Assembly: GCF_001517935.1 (NCBI RefSeq)
Contig: NZ_LOQF01000001.1
Span: 1 to 64,000 of the forward strand
Source of the DNA: Sneathia sanguinegens
Lineage (GTDB): Bacteria; Fusobacteriota; Fusobacteriia; Fusobacteriales; Leptotrichiaceae
Direction: 5' to 3'
Length of the DNA: 64,000 nt
A program made the position numbers and the translations under genes. The notes beneath the pieces are model-generated. The model made no database searches. It was not told where the DNA came from and saw only the letters and a list, made by a program, of their open reading frames with translations. This document shows positions 53 to 28,400 of the stretch, piece after piece. Numbering within the stretch: position 1 is the stretch's first letter; each line of letters starts with the position of its first letter.

Positions 53-165
53 AAACTTGGTGGCAAAGCTATAGGGGTACACCTAGCAACATACCGAACC
101 TAGAAGTTAAGCCTATATACGCCTAAAATACTCAGTAATGGGGAAGATTGGTAACTGCCAAGTTT
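53..165 (+). rRNA. rrf: 5S ribosomal RNA, copy 1
   Basis: This 113-nt sequence carries the conserved 5S core (ATACCGAACCTAGAAGTTAAG) and closes with a terminal helix AAACTTGG (53-60) pairing CCAAGTTT (158-165). Helix II/III pairing TATAGG (70-75) with CCTATA (112-117) is visible. The preceding 52 bases are probably the spacer after a 23S gene lying outside the window; I cannot identify a 23S end in them. A second, diverged 5S begins 6 nt downstream. Exact mature ends are inferred from the terminal helix. Confidence 0.93.
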
Positions 166-171
166 GTTTTG

Positions 172-284
172 AAATTTGGTGATTTGGCTACAGTGATACA
201 CCTAGTAACATACCGAACCTAGAAGTTAAGACTGTGTGCGTCGAAGATACTCAGAAATGGGGAAAATAGATGATTGCCAAATTT
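172..284 (+). rRNA. rrf: 5S ribosomal RNA, copy 2 (diverged)
   Basis: A second 5S of the same length (113 nt) follows copy 1 after 6 nt. The ATACCGAACCTAGAAGTTAAG core is identical, but many other positions differ, and several changes in paired regions are compensatory: C56-G162 becomes T175-A281, T72-A115 becomes C191-G234, and G75-C112 becomes T194-A231. The fold therefore looks preserved rather than decayed. It is followed by a run of ten T residues at 281-290, which could end the rRNA transcript together with the terminal helix. The annotated end is inferred from the terminal helix. Confidence 0.88.
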
Positions 285-1997: not shown

Positions 1998-3464
1998 ATG
2001 AATATAGAAAAATTATATCCACAAAGAGTATTTCACTATTTTTTAGAAATTTCAAAGATACCAAGAGGTTCTGGAAATGAAAAGCAAGTTAGTGATTATT
2101 TAGTATCATTTGCAAAAAAGCACAATTTATTTGTTTATCAAGATGAAAATAATAATATCTTAATTAGAAAAGAAGCAACAAAGGGTTATGAAAAATACAA
2201 ATCTATCTGTATTCAAGGGCATATGGACATGGTTTGTGAAAAAAACAAAGAAGTAGAATTTGATTTTGAAAAACAAGGGATAAATGTTTTAATTAAAGAT
2301 GGCTTTTTAACAGCAGATGGAACTACTTTGGGTGCAGATAATGGTATATCTATGGGAATGACTTTAGCAATATTAGAATCAGATACTATTCCTCATCCAA
2401 AATTAGAAGTATTAATTACTACAGATGAAGAAGTTAGCATGAAGGGTGCAACAAAATTTGATATATCAAAATTAGAATCAGATATTTTGGTTAATATAGA
2501 TAGTGAAGAATATGGTTCTATTTATGTAAGTAGTGCAGGTTGTTCAAGAGTTAGAACATTTTTAGAATTTGATGCTGAAGAAATTGTTTTAAAAGATAAT
2601 ATATACAACTTAGAAATTAAAGGTTTACAAGGTGGACATAGTGGAGCAGACATACATGAAAATCATGCAAATGCTATAAAAATATTGAATGAAATTTTAA
2701 GAAGAGTTTCAATAATGTGTGATGTAAATTATGTTAGTATAAATTGTGGAAGTAAAAATAATACTATACCTAGAGAAGGGCAAGTAACTTTTGTTGCAGA
2801 TGAAAATATTGATAAATTAAAGGAATATATAGATTTAGCAGTAGATTCATTGAATTATGAATACAAGGCAAGTGAAAGTGGTATGCAAGCTATACTTACT
2901 AAAGAAAATTATATGGCACAAAAACAATTTAGTAAAAAATCAACAGTTAAATTATTAAGATATTTGGAAGGATATTTAACAGGAGTTATTAGATTTTCAA
3001 AAGATATAGAAGGTTTGGTACAAACATCACTTAATTTGGGTATAATAACAACAATAGATGACGATAAAAAGAAATTTGTAACAGTTAATGCCTTAGTTAG
3101 AAGTGGAATTCTTTATGAACAAGAAGAATTATGTAAATATCTTGTAAATTATGGTGAAAAATATGATAGCAAGACTGTTATAGATGATAGTTGTAATCCT
3201 TGGGAATATAGAAAAGACTCAAAGATAAGAGACTATTTTGCAAGAATTTTTGAAGAACAAACAGGTAAAAAACCTAAGATAGCAGCTATACATGCTGGTC
3301 TTGAATGTGGAATTTTCTTTGAAAAAAATCCTAATTTAGATGTAATTTCTATAGGACCAGATATTAAAAATCCTCATACACCTGATGAAAGAATGAGTAT
3401 AGAAGCTGTAGGGCAAACTTATGAATATTTATTAAAAGCATTGAAGGATTATAACATTGATTAA
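1998..3464 (+). CDS. pepD: Aminoacyl-histidine dipeptidase (PepD, peptidase family M20C)
   Basis: A 488-aa cytosolic zinc dipeptidase that splits Xaa-His and other dipeptides. Family M20 metal and catalytic motifs are in order: IQGHMDMVCE (H75, D77), the GTTLGADNGISMGM block, LITTDEEVSMKGA (paired Glu), GLQGGHSGADIHENHANAIK in the dimerisation/lid domain, and IHAGLECGIF near the C terminus. Length matches the family. RBS GGGGAGG lies before ATG 1998. The gene overlaps the next start (TTG 3457) by 8 nt. It would feed amino acids from imported peptides, in line with the peptide transporters elsewhere in the window. Confidence 0.95.
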   Translation: MNIEKLYPQRVFHYFLEISKIPRGSGNEKQVSDYLVSFAKKHNLFVYQDENNNILIRKEATKGYEKYKSICIQGHMDMVCEKNKEVEFDFEKQGINVLIKDGFLTADGTTLGADNGISMGMTLAILESDTIPHPKLEVLITTDEEVSMKGATKFDISKLESDILVNIDSEEYGSIYVSSAGCSRVRTFLEFDAEEIVLKDNIYNLEIKGLQGGHSGADIHENHANAIKILNEILRRVSIMCDVNYVSINCGSKNNTIPREGQVTFVADENIDKLKEYIDLAVDSLNYEYKASESGMQAILTKENYMAQKQFSKKSTVKLLRYLEGYLTGVIRFSKDIEGLVQTSLNLGIITTIDDDKKKFVTVNALVRSGILYEQEELCKYLVNYGEKYDSKTVIDDSCNPWEYRKDSKIRDYFARIFEEQTGKKPKIAAIHAGLECGIFFEKNPNLDVISIGPDIKNPHTPDERMSIEAVGQTYEYLLKALKDYNID

Positions 3465-4536
3465 AATAGATGGTATTGTAGTAGTTGAAGGTAAAGATGA
3501 TAAAACAGCCCTAAGTAGAGTAATTGAACCAGAAAAAATATATATATTAAATGGAATGAGTGGAGCAAATCAAAAAAAAATTGACGATTTAAAAAGATTG
3601 GCAAAAAATAATAAAATATATATTTTAACAGATCCAGATTATGCTGGTAAAAAAATAAGGGAAAAGATAAATAAGAATATTCCAAATGCTATAAATATAT
3701 ATGCAAATAAATTTTTAGCAACAAAAAAGGATAATGTTGGAGTTGAAAATTTAAATGCAGATGATATTTTTGATTTATTTAAAAATATACATGAAGTTGA
3801 AAAGAATAAGAAAGATAAATTTACAATAACAGAATTAATGGATGCAGGACTATTAGTAGGTAATAATAGTAGAATTAAAAGAGAATTACTGGGAGATATT
3901 TTGGCTATAGGTTATTGTAATGGTAAAAAATTATTGAATTTATTAAACAGTCTTAATATATCAAGAAAAGATTTTGATGCTGCAGTTGAAATAGTAAATA
4001 AAATGTATAAATTTAAGGATAAAAATGCAGCAATATTTGGTAAGTTTTTTCCTGTACATAAGGGACATATTAAATTTATTAAATTAGTTGCAAGATATTG
4101 CAAAAATGTATATGTTTTTGTTTGTTCTGAAACAGAAAGAGATAAAAAATTAAATGAAAAATCAAAATTAGCTAATTTAACGATAAATGATAGAAAAAGA
4201 TTTGTTGAATTGGAAGTTAAGGGTTATAAGAATATAAAGGTATTAGAATTAAATGAAGATGGAATAGAGCCATATCCTAATGGCTGGGAAGCTTGGTCAA
4301 AAAGAGTTAATGAAAAAATAGAAAAAAATTCATTAAAGATAGATTGTATTTTTACAAATGAAGTTCAAGATCAAGAAAAGTATAATAAGTATTTTAATAT
4401 AAAAGCCTATTTATTAGATCCTAAAAGAGAAGATTATTCTATATCTTCTACAATGATTAGAAATGATCCAGAAAAATATATAGATTATTTTCCAGAAAGT
4501 GTAAAAAAGTGGTATTTTAAATTTAAGGAGAAATAA
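3457..4536 (+). CDS. Fused ribonuclease M5 / NadR-type NMN adenylyltransferase
   Basis: A 359-aa two-domain protein. Residues 1-178 are a whole RNase M5: Toprim motif VVVEGKDDK (E11) and LTDPDYAGKKIR (D59, D61), then the DUF4093 region (121-175, with GLLVGNNSRIKRELLGDILA and IGYCNGKKLLNLL). RNase M5 cuts precursor 5S rRNA in Bacillus. Residues 192-359 match the nicotinamide-mononucleotide adenylyltransferase domain of NadR: FGKFFPVHKGH (H201, H204), VCSETERD, EDGIEPYPNGWEAW, and ISSTMIR (329-335). The ribosylnicotinamide kinase domain and the N-terminal helix-turn-helix of enterobacterial NadR are absent. The start TTG 3457 is supported by GAAGGA 9 nt upstream and by alignment with the usual M5 N terminus; it overlaps pepD. 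The reading frame is open throughout, so this is not a frameshift joining two genes. Confidence 0.88.
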   Translation: MIKIDGIVVVEGKDDKTALSRVIEPEKIYILNGMSGANQKKIDDLKRLAKNNKIYILTDPDYAGKKIREKINKNIPNAINIYANKFLATKKDNVGVENLNADDIFDLFKNIHEVEKNKKDKFTITELMDAGLLVGNNSRIKRELLGDILAIGYCNGKKLLNLLNSLNISRKDFDAAVEIVNKMYKFKDKNAAIFGKFFPVHKGHIKFIKLVARYCKNVYVFVCSETERDKKLNEKSKLANLTINDRKRFVELEVKGYKNIKVLELNEDGIEPYPNGWEAWSKRVNEKIEKNSLKIDCIFTNEVQDQEKYNKYFNIKAYLLDPKREDYSISSTMIRNDPEKYIDYFPESVKKWYFKFKEK

Positions 4537-4537
4537 A

Positions 4538-6334
4538 ATGAAATTGAAAGTAATGGCAAGTTTAGTTATGCTATCAAGTATTATTGCTTATTCAGAAACT
4601 ATTTCTGAAATACAAGGTACAACTCATACCTCACCTTATAATAATAAAGAAGTAACAAAGGTAAAAGGTGTAGTTACAGCTATAGTTGGTAAAGGTTTTT
4701 ATATGCAAAGTTTAAAAGCTGATAATAATCAAACAACTTCTGAAGGTATTTATGTAGAAACTAAGGGAGAATTGCCTAATAAGGGTGATTATGTAAGTGT
4801 TGATGGGCTTGTAAAAGAAATTCAATTTGGAAGACCTAATCCTTCAGATTTAACAGTTACAAGTATACAAGCTAGTAATCTACAACTTATATCTAAAAAT
4901 CATAAAGTAAAAGCTACAGTAATTGATCCACATAAAATACCTAAAAAAGTATATATAGGTAAATTTAATGAAAAGTTGAATATAAAGAAAAATGCGATGG
5001 ATTATTATGAATCTCTTGAATCAATGTTAGTTAAAGTTAATAAACCTATGGTTACAGGTGTATCAGAAGATCATGGAGAAATAAGCGTAGTACCAGAATA
5101 TGGTAAATATGTAACAAATAAAACTAATAATGGTGGAATAAGATATACATATGATAATGAACAAACTCAAAGAGTGTTAGTTCAAGATAAATTATTCAAA
5201 ATAACAGAAGGACCTAGATATGATGGTAGATATAAAGATCCAAGTTTTACACCTAATCCAGGAGATGTATTTACAGCTCCAATAGAAGGAATATTAACAT
5301 ATAATTATTCAAATTATAAGCTAATAAATACAAATGAATTGCCTAAATTAAAGGATATGGGCTTCAAAAGAGATAAAAATAAATTTAATTATGATAAAAA
5401 TAAATTAAATGTAGTTTCATATAATATAGAAAATTTCACTATAGCAGATGGTGGTGAAAAAAGAGTTGAAATTTTAGCAAAACAAGTTAGAGATTATCTT
5501 AAAACTCCAGATATCATAGGTCTAGCAGAAGTTGGAGATGACGATGGAGGTAATGTAAAAGATAGAACTGTAGTATCTTCTGAAAAAACTTTAACTGCTA
5601 TAGTAAATGAAATAAAGAAAGTTACTGGAGTAGAATATAAATATATGGTTATAAATCCAGAAGATGGAAAAGATGGTGGTTGGCCAGAAATGCATATTAG
5701 AAATGCAATATTATACAGAACTGACAAATTAGAAGCACCATATATTAATCAAGGAAATGCAATAGTAGATACAGATATACAAAATGGTAAATTAACATAT
5801 AATCCAGGTAGATTAGGAAATGGTAAAGATTTCTTCAAAGATGTTAGAAAATCTCTTGTTGCACATCTTCAATTAAAAAATAGTAAAAAAGATGTATTTG
5901 TTGTAGTAAATCATTTAAAATCTAAGAGATTTGATGATAAAATTTATTCAAAGAATCAACCAGTAAAAAGAGCATCTGAAAATTTAAGAATACCTGAAGG
6001 GGAATATATAGGAGCATTTTTAAAGAAAATTAATAAACAAAAACCAAATGCAATAATTTTGTCAATGGGAGACATGAATGACTTTGAATTTTCACCAACT
6101 TTAAAGGCAATGAAAACTGATGTGATGGTTAGTGCTGTAGAACAATTACCAAAGAATCAAAGACATACATATATATATCAAGGTAATGCACAAGTATTAG
6201 ATAATTTATTGGTTAATAATAAATATGCTAAAAAAATGAAAGTAGATATTTTAAATATAAACTCAGAATCAACAAAGGCACAAGGATATTTCAGTGATCA
6301 TGATCCAATATTTATACAAATAGATGTTAAATAA
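4538..6334 (+). CDS. Secreted endonuclease/exonuclease/phosphatase-family nuclease (ExeM/NucH-like)
   Basis: A 598-aa exported protein. Residues 1-19 form a signal peptide (MKLKVMASLVMLSSIIAYSE). Residues 35-120 look like the OB-fold seen in extracellular nucleases (VKGVVTAIVGKGFYMQS). The catalytic EEP domain occupies about 290-598: VVSYNIENF, LAEVGDDDGG (metal-binding Glu), VNHLKSKRFDD (His), SMGDMNDFEFSP (Asp/Asn), DNLLVNN, and FSDHDPIFIQI (catalytic Asp-His pair). All key residues are present. It would degrade extracellular DNA for nucleotide supply or biofilm turnover. ATG 4538 directly follows the previous stop with GGAGAA upstream. Substrate is inferred from family. Confidence 0.87.
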   Translation: MKLKVMASLVMLSSIIAYSETISEIQGTTHTSPYNNKEVTKVKGVVTAIVGKGFYMQSLKADNNQTTSEGIYVETKGELPNKGDYVSVDGLVKEIQFGRPNPSDLTVTSIQASNLQLISKNHKVKATVIDPHKIPKKVYIGKFNEKLNIKKNAMDYYESLESMLVKVNKPMVTGVSEDHGEISVVPEYGKYVTNKTNNGGIRYTYDNEQTQRVLVQDKLFKITEGPRYDGRYKDPSFTPNPGDVFTAPIEGILTYNYSNYKLINTNELPKLKDMGFKRDKNKFNYDKNKLNVVSYNIENFTIADGGEKRVEILAKQVRDYLKTPDIIGLAEVGDDDGGNVKDRTVVSSEKTLTAIVNEIKKVTGVEYKYMVINPEDGKDGGWPEMHIRNAILYRTDKLEAPYINQGNAIVDTDIQNGKLTYNPGRLGNGKDFFKDVRKSLVAHLQLKNSKKDVFVVVNHLKSKRFDDKIYSKNQPVKRASENLRIPEGEYIGAFLKKINKQKPNAIILSMGDMNDFEFSPTLKAMKTDVMVSAVEQLPKNQRHTYIYQGNAQVLDNLLVNNKYAKKMKVDILNINSESTKAQGYFSDHDPIFIQIDVK

Positions 6335-6342
6335 AAAAAAAG

Positions 6343-6372
6343 AAAAACTAGAATTAAATTTCTAGTTTTTTT
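6343..6372. terminator. Shared terminator between convergent genes
   Basis: Stem AAAAACTAGAA (6343-6353) pairs with TTCTAGTTTTT (6360-6370) and is flanked by A-rich and T-rich tracts, so it can end transcription from both the nuclease gene and the minus-strand AEC operon. Confidence 0.8.
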
Positions 6373-7367
6373 TATACTAAATATAGACTATGTGTATAAT
6401 TTAAAATGACTAACCAAAATATCATCATAATAATAGAAATAAAGGTTCCTATTAAAGAAATATTAGAAGCTAGTAAAGCTTCATTATCATATTTAATTGC
6501 ATAAGAAACAGCAACAGTAGCTGGAGGAGTTGTAAGCATTATTATTATTGCAACAACAGCTTCATATTTAAAAATAATACCAAAGTAATTAAATAAAATT
6601 AATATTACTAAGAAAATAGCTGGAATTATAATTAAACGGAAAACGCAATATATAATAGTCATTTTTTCCTTTAAAGCTTCCTTTAAGGGTACGGTTGCTA
6701 ATGTCATTCCTATAGCTAAAAAGGCTAAAGGAGATGATGTTTCAGCTAAACATTTTAGTACAAAAAATATTGGCTTTGCACTTCTATCTATTCTCAATAT
6801 TGGAAAAGTATTTTGGAATATCCAACAGAATAGACCTAAAAAAGTAGCTATAATAATAGGATTTACTATAATTTTTTTTATATTTTTTCTTTCAAATTTT
6901 ATACCACTCATCATAACTAAACCAAATGTATATAAAAAGACTCTATAACCTATATTGAATATATTAGCATATAAAGTACCAGTAGAACCTATAATTCCAT
7001 CAATTATTGGAATAGCAAAAAAAGTTGTAGAACCAAAAGCAGTAAACACTATTAAGGCTTTTTTTAATTTACCCGAATATTTATAATAAAAGACATAGCC
7101 TAATAAAATTAACAAAACATATGCTATAAAGCTAAAAATTAAGACATTTATTCCTGTTGTAAATGTTTCTTTTTTTATATCTTGCATAAAGGCAGTGAAG
7201 GCTAATGCAGGTAGTGTAGCACTAAGTGATACACTACTAATTGCATGAGCACAATTATCTGGAACTAAGTTCTCTTTTAAAAGAAAATAACCCAGAAGTA
7301 TTATAAATATGCTACAAAAAATTGCGGATAAAAAACTGGTATTTAATATTATATTCAACTGATTCAT
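6372..7367 (-). CDS. AEC (auxin efflux carrier) family transporter, copy 1
   Basis: A 331-aa membrane protein with about ten hydrophobic segments. It shows AEC-family features: a first half with PALAFTAF in a crossing region and a second half with [13 protein letters not shown] and [12 protein letters not shown]. Bacterial members carry malate, lactate or other small organic anions, or amino acids. It lies 13 nt downstream of the 2-hydroxyacid dehydrogenase and is paralogous, at the same length, to the carrier upstream of that gene. RBS AAAGAGG precedes the ATG. Transport of the dehydrogenase substrate or product is an inference from the operon. Confidence 0.88.
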   Translation of the reverse strand: MNQLNIILNTSFLSAIFCSIFIILLGYFLLKENLVPDNCAHAISSVSLSATLPALAFTAFMQDIKKETFTTGINVLIFSFIAYVLLILLGYVFYYKYSGKLKKALIVFTAFGSTTFFAIPIIDGIIGSTGTLYANIFNIGYRVFLYTFGLVMMSGIKFERKNIKKIIVNPIIIATFLGLFCWIFQNTFPILRIDRSAKPIFFVLKCLAETSSPLAFLAIGMTLATVPLKEALKEKMTIIYCVFRLIIIPAIFLVILILFNYFGIIFKYEAVVAIIIMLTTPPATVAVSYAIKYDNEALLASNISLIGTFISIIMMIFWLVILNYTHSLYLV

Positions 7368-7380
7368 AGAGCCTCTTTCC

Positions 7381-8376
7381 TTATTTTATATTATTTTTAC
7401 ACTTGTCTGTTGTAATATATTCTTGTAAATTTTCAAAACTTGTTTCTATCATATTAGTAACAGCTTCATCAGTGTATGAACCTATATGTGGTGATAATAG
7501 AACCTTAGGATAAAGTTCAACTAGAGCTTCAAAGTCTTCATTTTCTATTGTAGAATTTGATAAATCTTTGAAGAAAATTCCAGCTTCTTTATCAACTGTA
7601 TCAAGACCAGCTCCAGCAAGATGACCAGACTTAATTGCAGCTATTAATGCCTTAGTGTCTACAACTTCTCCACGACCAGTATTAATTAATATAGAATTAG
7701 GTTTCATTTTTTCAATGAAGTCCTTATTAACAACTTTACCTTGTTCTTTGATAAAAGGAATATGTAAAGAAATTATATCACTTTTTTGTATAAGTTCTTC
7801 CATGCTAACTTGTGTTAAAATATCATCAACATTTTCTTTTTTCATTATGTCATAACCAAGTACAGTTGCTCCTAAACCTTTAAATAATTTTGCTGCTGTG
7901 AAACCTATTTTACCTAAACCAATTACACCTACTGTACATTTTCTAATTTCTCTTGAGAACATATTAGCTGTACAACGGAAATCTTTTTTAGAAGTTTGAC
8001 TTGTAGTTAATGCCATATTTCTAAGTAACATCATAGCATGAGTTATTGCTAATTCAGCTATAGCATTAGGTGAATAAAAAGGTACATATGCTAATTTGAA
8101 ACCTAAGCTCTTTGCATAAGCAATATCTATATGATTAACACCAACAGTTCTTGTTAAAACATATTTAACACCTAATTTTTTATAAATATCAAGATTTTCT
8201 TTGTTAGCAAAGCAATTACCACGAAGAATAACAGCATCAAAACCTTTAGCTAATTCAGCAGTTTCTTTACTATTTAAATATTCAGGTATTAAACTTAATT
8301 CAAAATTAAATCTTTCATTTATTTTTTTAAAGAATTTTTTTTCAACATCTCTAACACCGTAACATAATACTTTCAT
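7381..8376 (-). CDS. ldhA: D-lactate dehydrogenase-type D-2-hydroxyacid dehydrogenase
   Basis: A 331-aa NAD-dependent D-2-hydroxyacid dehydrogenase, most like fermentative D-lactate dehydrogenase, reducing pyruvate to D-lactate. The Rossmann motif [17 protein letters not shown] with the NAD-ribose Asp in GYD, the substrate Arg in [10 protein letters not shown], and the catalytic His in [11 protein letters not shown] are visible, as is [11 protein letters not shown]. Length matches the family. It sits between two AEC carriers, with gaps of 13 nt on each side, on one minus-strand transcript. Other 2-ketoacid substrates cannot be excluded. Confidence 0.88.
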
Positions 8377-8389
8377 TTTTTCCTCTTTT

Positions 8390-9385
8390 CTATATCAATG
8401 CATAAGCATGAGTTATTGCTAATACTATTATCCATATAATTATAGCAAATACAGATAAAACAGTATTTACTAATGAAATATCTGAAGCAAGTATAGCTTC
8501 TTTTTCAAATTTAATTGCATAAGCAACAGCAACAGTTGCAGGTGGTGTTGCAAGCATGATGATTATAGCAACAATTGCATCATATTGGAAAGTAATTCCA
8601 ACGAAATTTAGAATTATTAATAAAATTAAGAATAAAGCTGGGATTATAATTAATTTTATTGCACCATATACTAAAGTTTTTGTTTCTTTTAAAGCATCTT
8701 TTAAAGAAATATTAGCTAAAGTCATACCTATTGCAAGCCAAGCTAAAGGAGATGATAAACCACCTAAATACTTCAATGCAGCAAATATTGGTTTAGCAGT
8801 TTTATCTATTCTTGCAAAGGGTATTTCTTTTTGGAATATCCAAACAATAAGTCCCAAGAAAGTTGCTATTATTATAGGATTTAGAAAAATTTGTTTTAAA
8901 TTTTTCTTTTCAAATTTTATACCACTCATCATTATTAAACCGAATGAATATAAGAAAACTCTATAAGCAATATTGAAAATATTTGCATATAAAGTACCAG
9001 TATTACCAAGTAATCCATTGATTATTGGTATACCGAAGAATGTTGTAGAACCAAAGGCTGTTAAAACTATCATAGTTTTTTTAGTATCACCATGGTAGTT
9101 TATATAAAATAAATAACCTAGTAGAATCAACAAAATGTATGCCACAAAACCAAATATTAAAACATTTATACCTGTAGTATAAGTTTCCTTTTTAATATCT
9201 TGCATAAAGGCTGTAAATGCTAAAGCTGGTAAAGCAGCTGATAATAAAATTGAACTTAGAACCTTTGCTCCATGTTCATTAACTAAATTTTTTCTTCTTA
9301 AGTAATATCCAAGAAGGATAATAAATATTGTAGAAAAAATTGCTGATAAAAATTTAGTACTCAAAATTACACTTAGTTGTGTCAT
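8390..9385 (-). CDS. AEC (auxin efflux carrier) family transporter, copy 2
   Basis: A 331-aa AEC-family carrier, clearly paralogous to the one at 6372-7367: [16 protein letters not shown] is shared exactly, as are [16 protein letters not shown] and ATPPATVAV (T/A variant at the first residue). An upstream in-frame extension to 9442 would run into the promoter, so I chose ATG 9385, which has a GGGGGG-containing RBS 8 nt upstream and gives the same length as the paralogue. It is the first gene of the minus-strand operon with the D-lactate-type dehydrogenase. Confidence 0.88.
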
Positions 9386-9412
9386 CGTTGTCCCCCCTTT
9401 TTGAATAAATAA

Positions 9413-9442
9413 AGTATATAATATATTGCATTCAAAAGTCAA
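9413..9442 (-). promoter_or_regulatory. Promoter of the AEC-ldhA-AEC operon
   Basis: On the minus strand TTGACT (9442-9437) and TATACT (9418-9413) are separated by 18 nt, a good sigma-70 promoter, and lie 27 nt before the RBS. It is back-to-back with the recA promoter. Confidence 0.65.
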
Positions 9443-20501: not shown

Positions 20502-21605
20502 ATGTTAAAAGCATATAAATATCGGATTTATCCAAGTAAAGAGCAAGAAATACAGTTGGAAAAGACATTTGGCTGTTGCCGTTTTGTATATAATCAGACC
20601 CTTGCATACAGGAAAGATGCTTATGAAAAAGAAAAAAACTCTATCAGTAAAACAGACTGTAATAATTATTGCAATAGAGAGCTGAAAAAAGTTTATGAAT
20701 GGCTGAAAGAAGTAGACAAATTTGCTTTAACAAATGCAATTCATCATATGGATAGTGCTTATCAAAAGTTTTTCAAAGAGCATGCAGGTTACCCAAAGTT
20801 TAAGAGTAAACACGATAGGCATAAATCCTACACAACTAATTTTACAAATGGGAATATAACTGTAGATTTTGATAGAGAAAGAATAAAGTTGCCAAAGTTA
20901 AAAGAGATAAAAGCAAAAATTCATAGGAATTTTGCAGGGCAAATAAAATCGGCAACTATATCACAACTGCCGAGTGGAAAGTATTATGTAGCAATCTTAG
21001 TAGAAACAGAGAATGTAAAAAAGCAGGAGACAAGAGGTAAAATAGGTTTAGATTTAGGGATAAAGGATTTGTGTATTACATCAGATGGGAGAAAATACGA
21101 AAATCCAAAGACAATAAAGAAGTATGAGAGAAATCTTACAAAATTGCAAAGACAGCTTGCACATAAAATAAAAGGGAGCAGGAACTATCAGAAAAAAAGA
21201 AAGCAAATAGCATTATGCCATGAGAAAATAACAAATACCAGAAAAGATTATCTTCATAAGATTTCAAGTGAAATAATAAGCGAAAACCAAGTGATTGTTT
21301 CAGAAAACTTGCAGATAAAAAATATGATAAAAAACCATAAATTGGCTAAGTCTATAAGTGACGTTTCATGGTATGAGCTTACAAGACAGCTAGAGTATAA
21401 AGCAAAGTGGAACAATAGAATATATGTTAAGGTAGATAGTTTTTACGCAAGTAGTCAGTTATGTTCTTGTTGTGGTTGCCAAAATAAGAACATAAAAGAT
21501 TTATCCGTAAGGCAATGGAAATGTCCAAATTGTGGGGAAATACACGATAGAGATGTCAATGCCGCAAAGAATATATTAGCAGAAGGATTAAGACAAATAG
21601 CGTAA
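20502..21605 (+). CDS. tnpB: TnpB, RNA-guided nuclease of an IS200/IS605-type element
   Basis: A 367-aa TnpB. The N-terminal helix-turn-helix/wedge region ([33 protein letters not shown]) leads into the RuvC nuclease with all three acidic residues: D in GLDLGIKDL (about 191), E in [10 protein letters not shown] (about 275) and D in [12 protein letters not shown] (about 352). The zinc ribbon CSCCG...CPNCG is intact. TnpB proteins are RNA-guided DNA nucleases and ancestors of Cas12. No tnpA transposase is adjacent, so this is a TnpB-only unit. Base composition is less AT-rich than the neighbours, suggesting transfer. RBS is weak (GGCAGGTAAGCTGA). Confidence 0.95.
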
Positions 21606-23157: not shown

Positions 23158-24306
23158 ATGAATAATAAAAAAAATTTATCACTATTAATACTTATGTCAA
23201 GTATTACTTTGATGGCAATATTATGTGAACTTATGCCTACTGGTTTTTTGCCTCAAATAGGTAGTGTATATGGAAAAAGTATTTCTGAAACAGGAAGATT
23301 AGTAGGTATTTATGCACTAGCATCTGCAATTTTTGGAATACCTATAATATCTTTTACAGTTTCTTGGGATAGAAAAAAACTTTTGACAACACTTTTAGCA
23401 GGTTTTGCTATTTCAAATTTAATTGTAGGATTGGCACCATCATTTGGTTTTATGTTATTTGGAAGATTAATTGGTGGGCTTTGTGCTGGAACACTTTGGC
23501 CTATGATAACTGCATATGGTATGAAATTAGTCGATAAAAATGAAGAAGGTAGAGCAGTTACAATAATTATGTCAGGAATAACCATAGGGATGTCTATTGG
23601 TTTACCAATTATGACTATTATAGGGAATTTATTGACTTATAGGGCTATTTTTTTAATTTTAGGTATTTCTTTAGTGCTAATAGGAATATTATGCCATTTT
23701 AAATTACCTAATATCAAAGGAGAAAATAAGAGTAAAAGTAATTCTCCTATAACAATGCTTAAAAATCCGGGAGTATTATTAGTTATTGCATTAACTTTTT
23801 TAGGAGTAGGTGCTAATTATGGAGTTTATACTTTTATAACTAATCTTATAAAAAATGCAACTTATCCGGGTGTTGCGATGGCACAATTTTTTATAGGTAT
23901 AGGGTCAATAATTTCAGTAATTATGACTATAAAATTTATAGATAAGTATTTGCACATCATGATTTTAACATTATTCGCATTGACAGCCGTAGTATTTTTA
24001 ATATTCATTGGCTTTAAAAATGTAATGTTATTACATTTAGTATTTTTCTTATGGGGATTGGAATTTGGATCTTTGAGTAGTATATTTCAAACAGCTACAG
24101 CTTACCAAGTTACAAAGGGTGTTGAAGTTGCAAATTCATTACAATCATCATCATTTAATTTTTCTATTATGATAGGTTCAACAATTACAGGATATTTGCT
24201 TGAAAGCAAAGGAGTTAGTGCAATGCTATTTTTTGCCTTAGTACTATCAATAATAGGTTTAGTAGTTGCCTTTTTAAATAAAAGAAAATTTATTGACAAA
24301 GCCTGA
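23158..24306 (+). CDS. MFS transporter (sugar efflux/AraJ-like)
   Basis: A 382-aa, 12-segment major facilitator. The opening region (ELMPTGFLPQIGSVYG), the A-motif-like FTVSWDRKKLLT between segments 2 and 3 and GRLIGGLCAGTLWPM in segment 4 resemble the AraJ/drug-proton antiporter 1 (DHA1) group, which exports sugars or drugs. The gene has its own promoter. Its stop codon lies inside the promoter of the rplJ operon. Substrate is unknown. Confidence 0.85.
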   Translation: MNNKKNLSLLILMSSITLMAILCELMPTGFLPQIGSVYGKSISETGRLVGIYALASAIFGIPIISFTVSWDRKKLLTTLLAGFAISNLIVGLAPSFGFMLFGRLIGGLCAGTLWPMITAYGMKLVDKNEEGRAVTIIMSGITIGMSIGLPIMTIIGNLLTYRAIFLILGISLVLIGILCHFKLPNIKGENKSKSNSPITMLKNPGVLLVIALTFLGVGANYGVYTFITNLIKNATYPGVAMAQFFIGIGSIISVIMTIKFIDKYLHIMILTLFALTAVVFLIFIGFKNVMLLHLVFFLWGLEFGSLSSIFQTATAYQVTKGVEVANSLQSSSFNFSIMIGSTITGYLLESKGVSAMLFFALVLSIIGLVVAFLNKRKFIDKA

Positions 24307-24321
24307 AAAATATGCTAACAT
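24293..24321 (+). promoter_or_regulatory. Promoter of the rplJL-rpoBC operon
   Basis: TTGACA (24293-24298), 17-nt spacer ending in TGC, TAACAT (24316-24321). Consensus -35 plus an extended -10; it overlaps the MFS stop codon. Confidence 0.75.
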
Positions 24322-24340
24322 AACTTGAAGTAGAAAAAAC

Positions 24341-24433
24341 AAAGCCAAAGACAGTAGGTACAAAGATAAATCCTACCGAGGTAGAGTATGAATATATAGC
24401 ATATATGTTTACCTCTGGCTTAGAGGTTTTTTT
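24341..24433 (+). promoter_or_regulatory. Ribosomal protein L10 leader with attenuator
   Basis: The leader has the L10-leader hallmarks: AAAGCCAAAGACAGTAGGTA (24341-24360), the paired GTAGG (24355-24359) and CCTAC (24372-24376) followed by CGAGGT, and CTCTGGCTT near the 3' end. L10 (with L12) binds this structure. The end forms a terminator, ACCTCT (24411-24416) with AGAGGT (24421-24426) plus seven Ts, whose loop GGCTT can instead pair with AAGCC at the 5' end. These two pairings share bases, so the leader probably switches transcription. The family is recognised; the switching is inferred. Confidence 0.88.
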
Positions 24434-24456
24434 GTTTAAGTAGGAGGTGAAACAGT

Positions 24457-24939
24457 ATGCCAGCACAATACAAAGTTGACGAAGTAAAAAAATTAGTTTC
24501 TAAATTAGAAAATGCTAAAGCAGTAGTCTTTGTTGATTACAAGGGAATAACTGTTAATGAAGATACAGAATTAAGAAGAATTGCAAGAAATAATAATGTA
24601 GAATATTTCGTAGCAAAGAATAGATTAGTTCAATTAGCCTTAAAAGAAGTTGGAATGGAAGCAGATTATGGTACTTTATTAGAAGGTACAACTTCATATG
24701 TTGTAGGTTATGAAGATGGTGTAGCACCATCAAAAACTATATATGAATATAGTAATAAGATAGACAAATTAGAAATTAAAGGTGGTTATGTTGACGGAGG
24801 TTTAGTTGATAAAGCAATGATAGAAGCCTTAGCTAAGTTACCATCAAGAGAAGAATTACTATCTCAAATAGCTTATGGATTATTAAGTCCAGTTCGTATG
24901 TTAGCAGTAGCATTAACAAATGTTGCTGAACAAAAATAA
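24457..24939 (+). CDS. rplJ: 50S ribosomal protein L10
   Basis: A 160-aa stalk base protein that anchors L7/L12 dimers on 23S rRNA. Matches the family: KVDEVKKLVSKLENAKAVVF, DYKGITVNEDTELRRIAR, FVAKNRLVQLALKE, LLEGTTSYVVGYEDGVAPSK, and a C-terminal helix (SPVRMLAVALTNVAEQ) that binds L12. The strong GTAGGAGGTG precedes ATG 24457. The L10 leader upstream gives autogenous control of the operon. Confidence 0.97.
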   Translation: MPAQYKVDEVKKLVSKLENAKAVVFVDYKGITVNEDTELRRIARNNNVEYFVAKNRLVQLALKEVGMEADYGTLLEGTTSYVVGYEDGVAPSKTIYEYSNKIDKLEIKGGYVDGGLVDKAMIEALAKLPSREELLSQIAYGLLSPVRMLAVALTNVAEQK

Positions 24940-24959
24940 TAAAATAGGAGGAAAATATT

Positions 24960-25328
24960 ATGGCGTTCAATAAAGAACAATTTATAGAAGATTTAAAAGC
25001 AATGAGTGTTTTAGAATTAAAAGAAGTAGTAGAAGCAATTGAAGAAACATTTGGTGTTTCAGCACAACCAGTTGCAGTAGCAGGTGCAGCAGCAGGTGCA
25101 GCAGCAGCTGAAGAAAAGACAGAATTTGATGTAATATTAGCATCAGCAGGTGCTTCAAAGATTAATGTAATTAAAGAAGTAAGAGGAATTACAGGATTAG
25201 GATTAAAAGAAGCTAAGGAATTAGCAGAAACAGCAGGAGCTAAAGTTAAAGAAGGTGTTTCTAAAGAAGAAGCTGAAGAAATTAAGGCTAAATTAGAAGC
25301 AGCAGGAGCTACTGTAGAAATTAAGTAA
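24960..25328 (+). CDS. rplL: 50S ribosomal protein L7/L12
   Basis: A 122-aa stalk protein that recruits translation factors. The N-terminal dimer domain ([20 protein letters not shown]), Ala-rich hinge ([14 protein letters not shown]) and C-terminal domain ([40 protein letters not shown]) are all present. AGGAGG precedes ATG 24960. The repeated GCA codons of the hinge produce a long but meaningless reverse-strand reading frame. Confidence 0.98.
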
Positions 25329-25345
25329 TAAACTAACATATATTT

Positions 25346-25382
25346 AGACACTCTACAATAGTATAGGTGTAGAGTGTCTTTT
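25346..25382 (+). terminator. Attenuator between rplL and rpoB
   Basis: AGACACTCTACA (25346-25357) pairs perfectly over 12 bp with TGTAGAGTGTCT (25368-25379), then only TTTT. A partial terminator here would lower rpoBC relative to rplJL, as described for the Escherichia coli rplL-rpoB gap. Confidence 0.7.
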
Positions 25383-25461
25383 GTGCATTTCAAAAATTTT
25401 CAAAAAAATCGTTAATTTATATTTTTAAAATATTTTAAGCATCTTTTATGGGAGGAAATAA

Positions 25462-28400
25462 ATGAGTAAACTGATAGAAAGATACAGTTTCGGTAAGATT
25501 AAAGACAGAGGACAAATGCCTAGCTTTCTTGAATTTCAAATAGATTCATATGAAGATTTTCTACAAGCTAGAGTTAAGCCTGAAGAAAGAGAAGTTAAAG
25601 GTTTAGAAGCAATCTTCAGGGAAATATTTGGGGAAATATCACATGGTGATATTCAATTGAAATATTCAAGTTATGAAATTCGTGATAATGATGAACCATT
25701 AAATGATGAACTTGAATGCAAAAGAAGAGGAAAAACTTATTCAGGACAATTAAAAGTTAAATTTACTTTAAAGAATAAAGATGGGGAGATACCATCAGAA
25801 TTTGTTCACTTTGGTGAAATACCAATAATGACTGATAAAGGGTCTTTCATAATAAATGGAGCAGAAAGAGTTGTAGTTTCACAATTACATAGAGCACCAG
25901 GGATAACTTTTAATAAGGAAATGGATATGCAAACAGGTAAAGACTTATTTGTTGGTAAAATTATCCCATATAAAGGAACTTGGTTAGAATTTGAAGTAGA
26001 CAAAAAAGATGTTTTAAATGTAAAAATTGACAGAAGAAAAAAAGTCCCAGCAACAGTTTTTATGAAAGCAATTGAATTTTTCCATGATAATATTGAAATA
26101 ATGTCAGAATTCTTTGAAGAAAAAACAATAGACTTAACAGAAATCTATAAATATCATAAAGATGAAATGCTAAGTGTTATAAAATCAAAATTAGAAGGAT
26201 CTTTTTCAAGAGAAGATAAGATAGATGGAGAAACTGGAGAATTTATAGTTGAAATAGGTAAGAGAATAGGAGAAACAACTATACAAAGATTAATAGATTT
26301 AAAAGAACCATCTATACAAATATGGGAAGTTAAACCAGAAGATATACCTTTAGCAAATTCAATACAATTAGATTTAACAAGAGATTCTGACGAAGCTGTA
26401 GTTGAAATTTATAGAAAATTAAGACCAGGAGATTTGGTAACTGTTTCAAGTGCAAAGCAATTGATTATACCTATGTTTACTAATGTACAAAGATATGATT
26501 TAGCAAATGTAGGAAGATATAAGATAAATAAAAGACTTAAATTAAATTTACCAGATACAGATGTAGTATTGAAAAAAGAAGATGTTGTTGCAACAGTAAA
26601 TTATATTAAGAAATTAATTAGTGGTAATGGTGTAACAGATGACATAGATAATTTATCAAATAGAAGAGTTAGAGGTGTAGGAGAACTATTAGCTATTCAA
26701 ATAAAAGGTGGAATGATTAAATTAGCTAAAATGGCTAAGGAAAAAATGACAACTATACAAGATTTAAAGGCTTTATCTGTACAAAGCTTACTTAATACTA
26801 AACCTTTAAATGCTTTAATTCTTGAATTCTTTGGTAGTGGGCAATTATCACAATTCATGGATCAATCTAATCCATTAAGTGAATTAACACATAAAAGAAG
26901 AATATCGGCCTTAGGACCTGGAGGTTTATCAAGAGATAGAGCTGGGTTTGAAGTTCGGGATGTACACAATTCGCATTATGGTAGAATTTGTCCTATTGAA
27001 ACTCCAGAAGGACCAAATATAGGGCTTATAGCATCACTTTCAACTTATGGTAAGGTTAATAAATATGGATTTATAGAAACACCTTATGTAAAGGTAGAAA
27101 ATGGAGTTGCCAACTTCGATAAAATTGAATATTTAGGTGCAGATGAAGAAGAAGGACTATTTATAGCACAAGCAGATACACCTATAGATGAAGAAGGAAG
27201 ATTATTAACTAATCCTGTATGTAGATATGATGATGAAATAGTTACAATAGATAAAACAAAGGTAGATTTAATGGATGTGTCTCCTAAACAATTAGTTTCT
27301 GTTTCAGCAGCATTAATACCATTCTTGGAACATGATGATGCCAACCGTGCTTTGATGGGTTCAAATATGCAAAGACAAGCAGTACCTTTACTTAAAACAG
27401 AAGCTCCATTAGTAGGAACTGGACTAGAAAGAAAGGTAGCAATAGATTCAGGAGCAGTAATATGTTCTAAAGCAAGTGGTATTGTAACAGCAGTAGATGC
27501 TAAGAAAATTATTGTAACAGACAAAAAAGGTAAAGAATATCTACATAGATTATTAAACTTTGAAAAATCAAATCAATCTATGTGTTTGCATCAAAAACCT
27601 ATAGTAGATTTGAATGAAAAAGTTAAAAAAGGACAAATATTAGCAGATGGTCCAGCAACTTCAGGTGGAGATTTAGCCTTAGGTAAAAATATCTTAATTG
27701 CTTTCATTCCTTGGGAAGGATACAATTATGAAGATGCGATATTAATTTCAGAAAGATTAAGAAAAGATGATGTATTAACTTCATTACATGTTGAAGAATT
27801 TGATATAGAATCAAGAACAACAAAATTAGGTGATGAAGAAATTACAAGAGAAATACCTAATGTATCTGAAGACGCTTTAAGAAATCTTGATGAACATGGA
27901 ATTATTAGAGTGGGAGCTTATGTTAAACCTGATGACATTTTAGTTGGTAAAGTTACTCCTAAGGGAGAAACAGAACCACCTGCAGAAGAAAAATTATTAA
28001 GAGCAATTTTTGGAGATAAGGCTAAAGATGTAAGGGATACTTCACTTAGATTACCACATGGTGTTAAGGGAACTGTAGTAGAAGTTTTAGAATTATCAAA
28101 AGAAAATGGAGATGATTTAAAAGCTGGAGTAAATAAATTAATCAGAATTTATGTAGCAGAAAAGAGAAAAATAACAGTTGGGGATAAAATTTCAGGAAGA
28201 CATGGAAATAAAGGTATTGTTTCAAGAATTTTACCAGTTGAAGATATGCCACATTTAGAAGATGGAACTCCAGTAGATATATGCTTAAATCCATTGGGTG
28301 TGCCATCTCGGATGAATATAGGTCAAGTACTTGAAGTTCACCTTGGTTTGGCTTTAGGAAAATTAAAGAAACACATTTCAACACCAGTTTTCGATGGAGC

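Follow-up and report, generated by a model that had tools for sequence, protein, structure and literature searches.

The stretch of DNA analysed here (the window) comprises 64,000 nucleotides of Sneathia sanguinegens and carries, a few genes downstream of a tandem pair of 5S rRNA genes, a single open reading frame that joins an RNase M5 (rnmV) to the NMN adenylyltransferase (NMNAT) domain of a NadR-type protein. The locus is organized as follows:

56 to 163, plus strand: 5S rRNA, copy 1 of the tandem pair (Rfam RF00001), likely substrate of the M5 half
175 to 282, plus strand: 5S rRNA, copy 2 (Rfam RF00001)
1998 to 3464, plus strand: pepD-like M20 peptidase, an upstream neighbour that is kept before rnmV or the fusion
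3457 to 4536, plus strand: rnmV::nadR(NMNAT) fusion gene, 359 aa, with a TTG start and the stop codon within the range
3463 to 3987, plus strand: RNase M5 part, residues 3-177 (Toprim 7-76; DUF4093 93-177)
3487 to 3489, 3631 to 3633 and 3637 to 3639, plus strand: M5 catalytic codons E11, D59 and D61
3964 to 4020, plus strand: junction, residues 170-188, placed by AlphaFold2 secondary structure and alignment with standalone M5 and NadR
4021 to 4521, plus strand: NadR-type NMN adenylyltransferase part, residues 189-355, placed by profile matches, PDB and Foldseek
4057 to 4068 and 4441 to 4461, plus strand: NMNAT motifs HxGH (residues 201-204) and ISSTMIR (residues 329-335)

The 3' end of the pepD-like gene overlaps the TTG start of the fusion by eight bases (3464 versus 3457). 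TIGR00334, the RNase M5 model, matches residues 3-175 with 112.0 bits and narrowly passes its curated cut-off of 110.65 bits, and Pfam detects a Toprim domain (7-76) as well as a complete DUF4093 (PF13331, 93-177, 81.2 bits). The NMNAT half is matched by TIGR01526 at residues 192-355 (E 1e-35) and by PRK08099 at residues 184-355 (E 7e-44), but TIGR01526 scores 123 bits against the cut-off of 341 for a full NadR, and no further domain follows the NMNAT domain before the last residue, 359. By sequence, its nearest PDB chains are NadR 8X7F and 1LW7 and RNase M5 6TPQ. The initial annotation had described a single 359-codon frame with a complete RNase M5 (E11, D59, D61 and DUF4093), on which TIGR00334, Pfam and the predicted fold agree. 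The complete NadR-like NMNAT core that it described next is borne out by TIGR01526, PRK08099 and the fold of 1LW7 and 8X7F; the ribosylnicotinamide kinase half of NadR is missing.

An AlphaFold2 model of the fusion (45 aligned sequences) reached a mean pLDDT of 89.6 and a pTM of 0.64, indicating well-defined domains whose mutual arrangement is predicted without confidence. Foldseek aligned the M5 Toprim domain to 6Z2B and 6TG6 (TM of target 0.89 and 0.81) and the NMNAT half to H. influenzae NadR (1LW7; rmsd 1.5 A, E 1.8e-15) and trifunctional NadR (8X7F; rmsd 1.1 A, E 7.7e-15), at 34-36% identity in the structural alignments. In the model, the last M5 helix (170-184) reaches the first NMNAT strand (190-195) almost without a linker. 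The fusion shares the Toprim and DUF4093 domains, the catalytic E/D/D and the place behind pepD with known RNase M5 (TIGR00334; 6TPQ, 6TG6, 6Z2B), but has about 180 additional C-terminal residues that form the NMNAT domain; unlike 1LW7 and 8X7F, with which it has this domain in common, it lacks both the kinase and the HTH and carries M5 in front. Over the NMNAT domain, the fusion is 40-45% identical to Leptotrichiaceae NadR-A proteins (353-361 aa) and to the NadR of genome G068 (301 aa), whose kinase is eroded, yet these are encoded by separate genes and are not joined to M5. Both halves belong to known families, and the joined architecture appears to be new: as the initial annotation had supposed, no such protein was found described in the open-access literature on RNase M5 with NadR or NMNAT.

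Across 98 Fusobacteriia genomes, the full-length fusion is present in nine, all of them in four genera of one family, the Leptotrichiaceae (G000 and G092 of the window's genus, g1; G065 of g2; G083 and G084 of g8; and G093-G096 of the Streptobacillus-type genus g11). Each of the nine has one M5 match and one NadR-type match, both within one gene whose frame is uninterrupted, and the contig is chromosome-scale in G092, G094 and G083. The fusion proteins are 43-74% identical to that of the window, and a split version was found in none of the four genera. Most remaining Fusobacteriia genomes have a standalone M5 of ca. 185-200 aa, and Leptotrichia-type genomes (G076, G081 and G082) carry two separate NadR genes besides it. 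In trees of the separate halves, the nine fusions form one clade for either half (support 100/99 for M5 and 99/97 for NMNAT), which gives the fusion a single origin. The fusion itself is real. Eight residues (E11, D59, D61, H201, H204, S330, T332 and R335) are invariant in all nine proteins, and dN/dS amounts to 0.09-0.21 for both halves in six closely related pairs and to 0.33 and 0.38 for the halves in the more distant, near-saturated pair G000-G084, though several pairs are strongly diverged at synonymous sites, which makes these ratios rough. Both halves are under selection and, judged from their sequences, look active. Outside this family, a contig scan with six short peptides, which says little about fusions elsewhere, detected no fusion and matched only NadR genes from outside the phylum, chiefly those of Pasteurellaceae and Xenorhabdus; a plasmid collection gave single-domain matches without the fusion, and a BFVD search yielded no viral protein with both halves convincingly aligned.

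The fusion is probably the sole recognizable NMNAT of its genomes, as suggested by profile searches in which every absence is a profile-search absence and most genomes are drafts (the window's own is 97.55% complete; G092 and G094 are near-complete). In each of the nine genomes, PF01467 matches two to four genes in addition to the fusion. No other nadD or nadR gene, whose possible presence the initial annotation had raised, was found in the window's own genome, where the PF01467 genes besides the fusion are RibF and CoaD. NadD stayed below cut-off in all nine fusion genomes, and the same profile scored above cut-off in G068 and in the Sebaldella-type genome G091, showing that the search works in this family. 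NadE gave weak, local partial matches in the fusion genomes and strong ones in G081, G076 and G091; PnuC was not found in the fusion genomes and, among the genomes examined, was positive only in G091. An RNK-type AAA_28 domain was likewise found in no fusion genome, the single above-cut-off match in the window's own genome being dephospho-CoA kinase; G076, G081, G082 and G091, by contrast, have a clear NadR kinase domain. The second NadR paralogue of Leptotrichia-type genomes (L042:4898-6061, L050:4796-5926) has a well-kept kinase domain together with a changed NMNAT end motif (NVNSxxIR) and is possibly a kinase-only specialist. G081 also carries a cluster (L106) of an archaeal-type NMNAT-like gene of 178 aa, pncB and nadE (2247-2783, 2900-4096 and 4098-4835), a deamido route that is missing from the fusion clade.

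Every fusion genome encodes one NAPRTase-family protein of about 475-488 aa. For the one examined most closely, the best PDB matches are of the NAMPT type (E 1e-120 to 1e-144), and it conserves the positions corresponding to D219 and H247 of human NAMPT; its NCBIfam label is nicotinate phosphoribosyltransferase, so that nicotinamide as its substrate is what we infer. Combined with a sole M5 and a sole NMNAT, this NAMPT/NadV-like gene makes the last step from nicotinamide over NMN to NAD, in addition to pre-5S trimming, the likeliest job of the fusion. The proposed sequence of a phosphoribosyltransferase followed by an NMNAT is comparable to the NadV route of V-factor-independent Pasteurellaceae such as H. 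ducreyi, which proceeds through nicotinamide phosphoribosyltransferase and NMN adenylyltransferase (PMC4081464). The NMNAT of the Pasteurellaceae route has been described as unidentified (PMC4081464), whereas the candidate in the fusion genomes is part of the M5 fusion.

No RNase M5 other than the fusion was found in the window's own genome or in the other fusion genomes. In both predicted 5S structures, helix I gains ca. 3 A-U pairs from the flanks. The pre-5S of copy 1 nevertheless folds no better than shuffled sequences (z -0.04) and that of copy 2 only slightly better (z -1.11), so that folding alone gives no evidence of an M5 site. The 5S pair lies a few genes upstream of the fusion in both g1 genomes, but a distance of ca. 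11 kb in G084 shows that proximity is no family-wide rule. In Listeria, deletion of rnmV abolished processing of the 5S 5' end, and growth on plates at low temperature was like wild type (PMC12774634). With the listerial gene dispensable, the likely reason why the fusion gene cannot be lost would lie in its NMNAT half and not in M5.

Some features of the 5S genes themselves were apparent. The tandem copies at 56-163 and 175-282 are 11 bases apart and clearly diverged in sequence, and similar tandem 5S genes are present in G092, G065, G083 and G094. A comparison of 5S length (window 56-282 and loci L088-L099, L111, L114 and L119) gave 107-109 nt in the fusion genomes examined versus 113-115 nt in G068, G076, G081, G082 and G091, with nearly all missing bases at one place that corresponds by alignment to the tip of helix IV. 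The short 5S tracks the fusion clade and represents at most one phylogenetic event.

Gene order offers a route by which the halves may have met. A pepD-like gene lies directly 5' of standalone rnmV in G081, G082 and G076 (one reverse-strand ORF separates the two in G091) and directly 5' of the fusion in all nine fusion genomes. In G082 and G068, a separate nadR immediately precedes tRNA-Trp-secE-nusG-rplK-rplA, and in the three Streptobacillus-type genomes in which the downstream side could be read the fusion precedes tRNA-Trp-(secE)-nusG-rplK-rplA, with rpmG and secE read downstream in G094 (rpmG-tRNA-Trp-secE-nusG-rplK-rplA). The Streptobacillus-type locus, whose position before tRNA-Trp-secE-nusG is shared by the G068 NadR, has the pepD side and the tRNA-Trp-secE side together and thus joins both ancestral neighbourhoods. 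Other genes precede tRNA-Trp-secE in g1, g2 and g8 and also in G081 and G076, so that this adjacency rests on one genus, could have come about by chance arrival, and makes the history the most economical one rather than a proven one. The NadR of G068 has lost the kinase P-loop, indicating that the kinase half can decay ahead of any fusion; neither M5 nor a pepD-like gene was found in this genome, which is 88% complete.

Several further observations concern the surroundings of these genes. The G068 NadR gene (L039:5698-6603) lies ca. 90 bases from a 5S gene, before tRNA-Trp-secE-nusG. In the window, an L10 leader, rplJ, rplL and rpoB stand behind an MFS-type transporter gene (23158-25462), and secE-nusG-rplK-rplA of the same genome is on another contig, not before this rplJ-rplL-rpoB. 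The window also carries a D-2-hydroxyacid dehydrogenase gene on the minus strand between two similar AEC-type (Mem_trans) transporter genes (6372-9442). An IS605-type OrfB (TnpB-like) gene at 20502-21605 encodes 367 aa and matches a TNB domain. A nuclease gene downstream of the fusion had been proposed as a possible fit with nucleotide salvage, but it is conserved only in the other g1 genome and replaced in the other fusion genera; being kept only within g1, it carries no weight for the function of the fusion, and we rejected it as a functional partner.

We consider it likely that the gene is a bifunctional housekeeping fusion that arose once by pepD-rnmV meeting nadR and needs no regulatory coupling of its halves. 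Its N-terminal RNase M5 would trim pre-5S rRNA, as family, catalytic residues, fold and its status as sole M5 suggest, and its C-terminal NMNAT would convert NMN and ATP to NAD, a role to which family, motifs, fold and the lack of any other NMNAT found all point. A NadV/NAMPT-type enzyme would supply the fusion with NMN from nicotinamide. Most likely, pepD-rnmV was placed directly before nadR in an ancestor shared by the four genera, after which the boundary between rnmV and nadR would have been lost and the RNK half of NadR, redundant once nicotinamide gave NMN, deleted. Fixation was possibly neutral, and the joined gene would afterwards have been hard to lose with an NMNAT half apparently lacking a backup. 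Long retention in four genera, unsplit in nine of nine genomes, is equally expected from a useful coupling, yet an indispensable NMNAT half would let us expect it even without one.

Such coupling, in which NMN, ATP or NAD on the NMNAT half alters M5 or binding of 50S or RNA alters NAD synthesis, would be consistent with the single origin and unsplit persistence across four genera at 43-74% identity, the short junction with a continuous helix up to the start of the NMNAT domain, and the 5S pair a few genes upstream in both g1 genomes. We nevertheless regard it as unlikely: with a pTM of 0.64 the two halves are not confidently fixed relative to each other, no allosteric element or additional conserved surface was identified in the fusion, the 5S of G084 is ca. 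11 kb away, and an indispensable NMNAT alone would explain retention. For the tie between 5S maturation and NAD supply that the initial annotation had raised, long retention is the sole argument found. The stricter idea that occupancy of the NMNAT half by NMN, ATP or NAD determines how fast 5S is matured, or that 50S binding determines NAD synthesis, seems to us slightly less probable still. More improbable than either is a compressed operon, with internal initiation or cleavage yielding two separate proteins from the fused ORF. An in-frame ATG does lie near the boundary in eight of the nine genomes (residue 183 in the window), but seven of these eight have no Shine-Dalgarno-like site and that of G093 has merely a weak GAGG, G083 has no internal start at all, and Shine-Dalgarno-like sites do precede the main start in g1, g2 and g8; at the level of the nucleotide sequence, one polypeptide is to be expected.

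The initial annotation had also suggested that the nucleotidyltransferase acts on RNA 5' ends. We found nothing in support of this proposal, and an NMNAT half that adenylates or caps 5' ends near the M5 site instead of making NAD is very hard to credit: beyond the physical link to an RNase nothing favours it, the signature motifs and NadR fold are kept, and no replacement NMNAT was found. A frameshift error at the junction and a missing NMNAT fold had been named as outcomes that would speak against the fusion, and what we found is the fused frame in nine genomes and an NMNAT fold predicted with high confidence. The chance that two genes were joined artificially, by misassembly or a frameshift error, is negligible given nine independent uninterrupted frames, of which those of G092, G094 and G083 lie on chromosome-scale contigs, and we consider this explanation refuted.

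The likely bifunctional housekeeping fusion ties an rRNA-processing enzyme to the apparent sole NAD-forming enzyme in several host-associated genera and provides a candidate NMNAT for their NAD route. It predicts that the fusion genera live on nicotinamide via a NadV-type step and that the fusion gene is essential through its NMNAT half even though RNase M5 is dispensable elsewhere, a consequence that would be overlooked if the gene were annotated from its first domain only. Relatives with separate genes constitute natural controls for the effect of the fusion on either activity. Should control by metabolites be true after all, ribosome building would follow NAD and energy supply in these reduced-genome bacteria.
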